This document shows positions 4,796 to 5,327 of a DNA stretch of 6,838 nt, piece after piece. A model generated the notes under the pieces. That model did not search any database and had not been told where the DNA came from. It was given only the letters and a program-made list of their open reading frames with translations. Every line of letters starts with the position of its first letter. Positions within the stretch are counted from its first letter, which is position 1. The position numbers were made by a program, and so were the translations under genes. The DNA is taken from the NCBI GenBank assembly GCA_001803565.1, contig MHDQ01000124.1:1-6838 (forward strand). Reading direction: 5' to 3'. Origin of the DNA: Nitrospinae bacterium RIFCSPLOWO2_12_FULL_45_22. Its GTDB lineage: Bacteria; 2-12-FULL-45-22.

Positions 4796-4875
4796 GTCAT
4801 CGGGTCATTAGGTTATTAGGTCATTAGGACACAGGGTCATAACCTAATGACGCAATCACCCAATCACCCAATAAC
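4796..4875. repeat. In-phase octamer array with internal strand flip
   Basis: Ten 8-bp units run in strict phase between the IVP gene and ligA. On the plus strand they are GTCATCGG, GTCATTAG, GTTATTAG, GTCATTAG, GACACAGG, GTCATAAC, CTAATGAC, GCAATCAC, CCAATCAC and CCAATAAC. Units 1-5 follow GTYATTRG with some decay. Units 7-10 follow its reverse complement CYAATRAC. Unit 6 is intermediate (6 of 8 to either). The flip creates a perfect 9-bp inverted repeat, GTCATTAGG (4820-4828) and CCTAATGAC (4843-4851), with a 14-nt loop inside a longer imperfect palindrome. There is no T tract after it, so it is not an obvious intrinsic terminator. Confidence 0.85.
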
Positions 4876-4893
4876 GGCTATTAATTTATTGGG
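4867..4893. repeat. Inverted repeat CCCAATAA / TTATTGGG overlapping the IVP-gene stop codon
   Basis: CCCAATAA (4867-4874) and TTATTGGG (4886-4893) are perfect 8-bp inverted arms separated by 11 nt. The right arm contains the TAA stop of the IVP gene (minus strand, 4886-4888), so its last codons ACC-CAA-TAA are built from the octamer repeat. In RNA this would be a weak, AT-rich hairpin without a U run. Confidence 0.7.
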
Positions 4894-5275
4894 TAGCTTT
4901 TCTATTTCTGAGGGATGCTATATAGCCATTGAGAACCTTAATACATCTATAGGACAATTCCTTTAATTCTCGAAATTTGTCTTCGTCTATATAATTCTCA
5001 TCATAACTGGTTATTAAATGGTCTATAATCTCAAACAAGGAACCCCTGGCTTGTCGGCAAAATTGGATATTTTCCTGATAGTGGTAACGACCAAACCCCT
5101 CTGCGATATTGGCAGTGGATGATATGGCAGCCCTCTGTATCTGCGGCACTAAGGTATATTTCTCACTTTCAGGAAAGATTTTTGTAACCTTATAGATTTC
5201 TTTTCGGAGTACCCGGCATAATTGCCATAATTCGAGATCTTCAAAGGTATTGATTGGTTTCTCCCTATCCGCCAT
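4886..5275 (-). CDS. Four-helix-bundle protein, 23S rRNA intervening-sequence (IVP/S23, Avd-like) family
   Basis: A small, probably cytoplasmic all-helical protein of 129 residues. It has the hallmark blocks of the IVP family (TIGR02436 / PF05635): FEDLELWQ (11-18), QIQRAAISSTANIAEGFGR (45-63), ENIQFCRQARGSL (68-80) and LNGYIASLRNR (115-125). Relatives were first found encoded in insertions of Leptospira-type 23S rRNA genes. The diversity-generating-retroelement accessory protein Avd shares the fold and can bind nucleic acid. Here the gene is free-standing: no rRNA, reverse transcriptase or variable repeat is in the window. No biochemical role can be assigned. The ATG (5273-5275) lies inside a degenerate octamer of the upstream repeat array, and the stop lies in another octamer-like unit. 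There is no good Shine-Dalgarno; only the repeat-derived TTAGGTCA precedes the ATG. G+C over 4921-5280 is 140/360 (39%), lower than the neighbours, which suggests acquisition. Confidence 0.92.
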   Translation of the reverse strand: MADREKPINTFEDLELWQLCRVLRKEIYKVTKIFPESEKYTLVPQIQRAAISSTANIAEGFGRYHYQENIQFCRQARGSLFEIIDHLITSYDENYIDEDKFRELKELSYRCIKVLNGYIASLRNRKATQ

Positions 5276-5327
5276 TGACCTAATAACCTAATAACCCAAT
5301 AACCCAATAACCTAATAACCTAATAAC
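5272..5327. repeat. Tandem octamer array CYAATAAC, seven in-phase units
   Basis: Read on the plus strand from 5280, six perfect units follow in the order CTAATAAC x2, CCAATAAC x2, CTAATAAC x2. A seventh in-phase unit, CCATTGAC (5272-5279), matches CYAATRAC at 7 of 8 positions and contains the start codon of the IVP gene (CAT on the plus strand, 5273-5275). The array fills almost the whole gap between that gene and the RNase Z-like gene, whose stop codon (5330-5332) lies 2 nt from the last unit. The same octamer family recurs at 4796-4875. Confidence 0.93.

Follow-up and report, generated by a model that had tools for sequence, protein, structure and literature searches.

What tandem octamers on both sides of a short gene have to do with that gene is the question raised by the window analysed here, a stretch of 6838 bp that makes up the whole of contig C124 of the 3.67-Mb draft genome G000. 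The window contains only an oxidoreductase-like ORF, ligA, an IVP gene and an RNase Z-like gene. The IVP gene (4886..5275, minus strand) is a 129-aa ORF of the IVP/S23 four-helix-bundle family, which matches PF05635 with 111.6 bits (cut-off 33.8) and TIGR02436 with 103.7 bits (cut-off 24), and its product is an ordinary PF05635 member. IVP/S23 proteins take their name from odd rRNA insertions; to our knowledge they have neither an established function nor a catalytic domain. A profile search retrieved 2GSC as a PDB relative of the window's protein (E 3.4e-33), and since 2GSC and a second solved relative, 2RLD, contain five chains each, the protein may form a pentameric four-helix bundle; a family member from X. 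campestris has been described as a pentamer (PMC4990558). Both neighbours of the IVP gene are read in its sense: upstream the RNase Z-like gene (5330..6304, minus strand; NF002558, 349.5 bits, above cut-off), which has no match in G001, the sole relative in the order (68% complete), and downstream ligA (2763..4775, minus strand; NF005932, 903.7 bits).

The upstream arm of repeats (5272..5328, minus strand) comprises seven octamers of the type GGTTATTR on the sense strand of the gene, detected by TRF with period 8, 95% matches and a score of 88 (array score 37). On the plus strand its in-phase units read CCATTGAC, CTAATAAC twice, CCAATAAC twice and CTAATAAC twice, and the IVP start codon (5273-5275) lies inside the degenerate unit nearest the gene. 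The initial annotation had described these seven units (5272-5327) correctly, including the start codon within the first of them and the lack of any other 5' spacer, the array occupying all the space from the RNase Z stop codon (5330-5332) to the IVP start. The ten further in-phase octamers that it placed downstream are actually two blocks of opposite orientation. The proximal block (4844..4875, minus strand; TRF 4842-4872, array 4846-4872) consists of four CYAATRAC-type octamers oriented like the upstream arm, whereas the distal arm (~4795..4842, plus strand) consists of GGTYATTR octamers and matches the upstream arm in reverse complement, as indicated by TRF (4803-4828), by the inverted match and by the predicted RNA pairing. 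This inversion had been missed. The stop codon (4886-4888) does lie in an octamer-like unit, TTTATTGG, as had been claimed, but that unit is out of phase and has the opposite orientation; it can pair over 9 bp with 4866-4874 (ACCCAATAA / TTATTGGGT) in a small hairpin spanning the stop codon (4866..4894, minus strand; 11-nt loop), which is evident in the sequence and paired in the predicted RNA. The upstream flank matches the reverse-complemented downstream flank with a score of 42, compared with a maximum of 28 in 500 Markov-shuffled flanks, and the inverted match is thus beyond chance. In the predicted RNA, pairing of the arms closes an extended stem that encloses the ORF (-156.3 kcal/mol, z = -4.46). 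A translation signal as the sole role of the octamers, one of the functions suggested for them initially, is rejected because it leaves the inverted downstream arm unexplained. Beyond the IVP gene and its arms, a run of short G-rich repeats (GGGATCAGGGCTCGGGGCTCAGGG) precedes a C-rich counterpart (CCTGATCCC) at 6362-6435, in a layout like that of a small gene-less inverted pair, and ATCCGTGGTCATCCGTGGTT repeats at 6455-6612 are followed by GGATTTTCACAGATGCCCACAGA about 120 bp further; a similar word, ATCCGTG, is also found 3' of the tRNA at L007.

Nine PF05635 genes were identified in G000. By eye, eight of them are flanked on both sides by short-unit repeats that are largely mirror images, each with a word of its own: AGAACAAAG at L001, GTTCAACG at L002, TTCTAGG at L003, GGTTATTA in the window and TAGCTCATAGCTG at L006, with shorter repeats, likewise seen by eye, at L007-L009. 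The arrays of L001-L004 and L006 were also picked up by a strict array detector, which gave no confirmation for L005 or for the short arrays of L007-L009. Two successive copies of GGTYATTR, with at most one mismatch, gave 214 matches in G000 and 58 for a reversed control. The inspected sites of this word have no IVP gene; they include five close inverted pairs, always with the G-rich arm first, and some gene-less pairs are nested with other words. A dispersed composite element containing the window's word occurs in eight copies with the same core, varying unit number and unrelated flanks, and the common core between unrelated flanks shows that copying has occurred. The octamer as a general or IVP-specific signal is therefore rejected: the words differ between loci, and the octamer stands at many sites without an IVP gene. 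The initial annotation had held that its idea would be refuted if other IVP genes of this genome had no octamers, or if octamers were as common next to unrelated genes and not enriched at IVP loci. Taken literally, both were found; the other IVP genes of G000 share the layout of the cassette but not its octamer. The cassette idea nonetheless stands, because the layout, not the sequence, is conserved.

This layout extends across the IVP family. A genome scan with a two-sequence IVP alignment yielded 80 IVP loci from many phyla, and flanks were scored by the local match between the upstream flank and the reverse-complemented downstream flank, with a threshold of at least 30. Inverted flanks were found at 53 of 76 IVP loci, as against 9 of 204 neighbouring genes from the same loci, and a direct-orientation match at 5 of the 76. 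At least three of the nine scoring control genes are IVP genes; the six with scores of at least 32 comprise three PF05635 genes, a Y1 transposase, a YhcG nuclease and one unknown. The Y1 transposase with inverted flanks, at L078, represents a REP/RAYT-like positive control. Among 152 distinct IVP loci, an array was detectable upstream in 93 and downstream in 85 (Markov null, 0), with a period of 7 or 8 in 90 of 93; the two arms had the same period at 63 of 64 loci. The median array has five units, in counts whose low end is clipped by the detection threshold. The words are private to their loci: 76 distinct words were found among 90 arrays, and arms agree within one mismatch in 42 of 63 comparisons within a locus but in only ~3% between loci. 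In the upstream arm C is scarce, and AGT, CAG and TAG are abundant. Several IVP cassettes, those at L007, L014, L017 and L026, lie beside tRNA genes or between them.

Sites with and without the cassette could be compared in Flavobacterium, where 99 of 101 sampled genomes carry IVP genes. At site A (panB to an RluA-like gene), the cassette is present in G058, G115, G109 and others, G157 is empty with a 6-nt spacer, G118 has an inverted pair of a related word without a gene, and several other species have different 8-mer arrays. At site C, the cassette is present in G106, G188 and G164, and G105 and G140 have 4-bp spacers with no array. At site B (groES to groEL), the cassette is present in G115 and G188 and absent from G058 (flanks 97–99% identical), G101, G161 and G109; the cassette-free genomes carry a different ~70-bp spacer instead, and site B is therefore not a clean insertion. 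The co-presence or co-absence of gene and arms at orthologous sites means that they come as one unit, consisting of an arm, the IVP ORF and the inverted arm. At sites A and C the inverted ends are gained or lost with the insert, as for MITEs and other elements with terminal inverted repeats, in spacers whose empty and filled forms are too divergent for a target-site duplication to be defined. The suggestion that the octamers are part of a cassette carrying the gene is thus upheld by these sites and by the recurrence of the layout across the family. In G164, the tRNA-23S rRNA spacers of at least five rrn operons (L328-L332) carry arrays of the word of the site C cassette, GTATTAAG. The same genome has a gene-less inverted pair of this word at L333 (G164:C1:990800-991120), with a short loop that starts with ATGCAT like the IVP ORF, and this pair is possibly an internal-deletion derivative. 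In an unrelated genome, L022 (G005:C33:102830-103126) has a longer, 292-aa IVP-domain ORF flanked by a groES-like and a groEL-like gene; a short array of the AACTG type lies immediately before the latter.

The cassette is positioned between the stop codon of one gene and the start codon of the next, and its gene nearly always runs the same way as the host operon. With both neighbours no more than 300 bp away, the IVP gene is co-directional with both in 110 cases and opposed to both in 2, compared with 91 of 156 ordinary gene triples in which both neighbours are co-directional, in counts that use simple ORF calls and include related Flavobacterium loci. These counts are most simply read as pointing to a cassette that lacks its own promoter and persists only at transcribed sites. 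A 23S rRNA intervening sequence of Coxiella encodes S23p and has a terminal stem, with cutting by RNase III (PMC4990558). Like the intervening sequences of Coxiella and Leptospira (PMC4990558), the cassette has an ORF of the same protein family between stem-forming terminal inverted repeats, is inserted in a transcribed unit and is sporadically distributed. Unlike them, it occupies operon spacers, has arms of tandem 7-8-mers with a private word at each locus and is accompanied by dispersed gene-less copies. In the window, the ORF has inverted repeats on its two sides (score 42) that enclose it in a stem in the predicted RNA, but the cassette is located in the spacer between the RNase Z-like gene and ligA, and a search with Rfam detected no rRNA in the window. 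The element would work like a 23S intervening sequence yet lacks the location that defines one.

On balance, the locus is probably a mobile cassette of the IVP/S23 family that is embedded in a host transcript and related to the 23S rRNA intervening sequences. The cassette itself is well supported, and its mode of movement and the role of the IVP protein are what we infer. The cassette would borrow host transcription, which would account for the sense bias. Its arms would pair in the transcript and form a stem whose loop holds the ORF, like the S23p-coding intervening sequences, and RNase III probably cuts the paired arms, by analogy with Coxiella. The IVP protein may bind the repeat units, possibly with one unit to each subunit, and thereby recognise its own element. 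As no catalytic domain is known in IVP proteins, insertion and copying would need another enzyme, supplied by the host or by a co-resident element. Gene-less inverted pairs of cassette words are dispersed in the same genomes, and some are clearly copies of each other; they may represent MITE-like, non-autonomous forms. The unclean insertion at site B and the ~30% of the 76 loci that have no arms at a score of at least 30, L005 of G000 among them, speak against the mobile cassette.

If the arms were selected for pairing in RNA, an excess of transitions compatible with G.U pairs might be expected between them; compatible and incompatible transitions numbered 169 and 184, with no excess and thus no sign of such selection. 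Arms of orthologues co-vary at site A (kinship not corrected), and no co-variation was seen at the second site tested. These results weigh against the mobile cassette as proposed above, with its paired arms, and they also bear on the alternative that the arms act purely at the RNA level and are not mobility ends, folding the polycistronic mRNA around the IVP ORF for excision by RNase III or for autoregulation of translation by IVP bound to the repeats beside its start codon. The stable predicted fold, the strong sense bias, the upstream arm abutting the start codon and the precedent of RNase III cutting in intervening-sequence stems (PMC4990558) are all consistent with it. Given the lack of wobble asymmetry, the inconsistent co-evolution of the arms and the dispersed gene-less copies, which require a copying process, we consider a purely RNA-level function unlikely. 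An RNA-level role is compatible with the mobile cassette, and the two explanations are not exclusive.

A different order of events, in which inverted-repeat hairpins spread alone and are later joined by the IVP gene, a hitch-hiker inserted in their loops, would agree with the excess of gene-less pairs, which far outnumber IVP copies, and with the nesting of arrays of different words. It appears improbable, since each IVP locus has a private word and the G157 spacer at site A is only 6 nt. Arrays as pre-existing landing sites are rejected on account of the empty orthologues at site C, whose 4-bp spacers contain no array and also disfavour the insertion target proposed in the initial annotation.

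The preferred reading, a mobile cassette, also bears on repeats that have been published as arrays with no known partner gene, namely the GGGAATC heptamers of Xanthomonas, which form 70–75 convergent pairs per genome and are generally unlinked to mobile elements (Rehm et al. 2015, PMC4692102), the GGGGATT arrays of Nostoc (PMC4692102) and the TAACTGA arrays of Beggiatoaceae (MacGregor 2015, PMC4679880). The cassette arms resemble these arrays in being tandem short units in spacers, with a period of 7 or 8 across the family and a unit of 8 bp in the window, and the 7-mers of Xanthomonas are often convergent inverted pairs. At L377, the arms around an IVP gene, located between an accB-like and an accC-like gene, consist of GGGAATC, and pairs of this heptamer without a gene occur elsewhere in the same genus; genome and genus were chosen by the presence of that repeat and are presumably xanthomonad-like. 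No link to IVP genes was seen in PMC4692102 or PMC4679880, and we found no paper in the open-access PMC literature that links IVP genes to inverted arrays. Although such partnerless arrays could suggest that low-complexity spacer repeats arising by slippage flank IVP genes by accident, this is scarcely credible in view of the strict inversion, the one word in both arms and the restriction to periods 7 and 8, and chance is rejected by the neighbour-gene, Markov-null and shuffle comparisons, in all of which the arms are strongly enriched.

Among other known systems, REP/REPIN sequences with their RAYT (TnpA-REP) genes are similar in that a gene lies between inverted repeats of a kind that is also dispersed as gene-less palindromic spacer copies. 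They differ in that an IVP four-helix bundle replaces the Y1 transposase and in that tandem arrays take the place of the fixed palindrome; no Y1 (HuH) transposase gene was found beside the window's repeats, the PF05635 ORF being the sole gene of the cassette. The Avd proteins of diversity-generating retroelements form a related four-helix-bundle family, and one IVP protein also matches the Pfam bAvd model (E 6e-6, below cut-off). Unlike a diversity-generating retroelement, the cassette is a stand-alone gene with array arms, and no reverse transcriptase, template or variable repeat was found in the window.

A broader and more tentative proposal, which we regard as possible but do not lean towards, is that a class of mobile elements spread across the bacteria, with ends set by architecture, not sequence, has the IVP genes as its coding members. 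Heptamer arrays that stand alone, GGGAATC in Xanthomonas among them, would be gene-less offspring of this class, and the 23S rRNA intervening sequences a special case carried in rRNA. A pentameric protein would recognise inverted arrays with about five 7-8-mers, and ends defined by architecture would allow each lineage of copies a word of its own. There is a real chance that the element represents a new class. If the arms are ends or binding sites of IVP, one gene family would tie together the intervening sequences of rRNA, the orphan heptamer arrays of some genomes and the variable small insertions within conserved operons, groES-groEL and accB-accC among them. The inverted-arm layout would then also serve as an easy rule for annotating common elements of spacers, and binding of IVP to about five repeats of its own word is a directly testable prediction.

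Arrays were also compared between genomes with and without IVP genes, in small samples of genome stretches and with phylogeny not corrected: intergenic arrays were present in 1 of 24 sampled IVP-negative genomes and in 8 of 30 stretches of IVP-positive ones, and in Flavobacterium two IVP-free genomes had 0 arrays in 120 kb and four IVP-rich genomes had 8 in ~154 kb. The one IVP-negative genome with arrays is G001 (68% complete), and arrays in a genome with no detected IVP gene count against the mobile cassette. Other flank structures and other genes were encountered as well. G009 (L021, L031) has nineteen short IVP-family matches, many of them in divergent head-to-head pairs with another flank structure. 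At L102, a gene for a YhcG/DUF1016 PDDEXK nuclease (1418-2509, plus strand) lies between inverted TTAGTGG-type arrays, and these nucleases may be another gene family that has arms of this kind.
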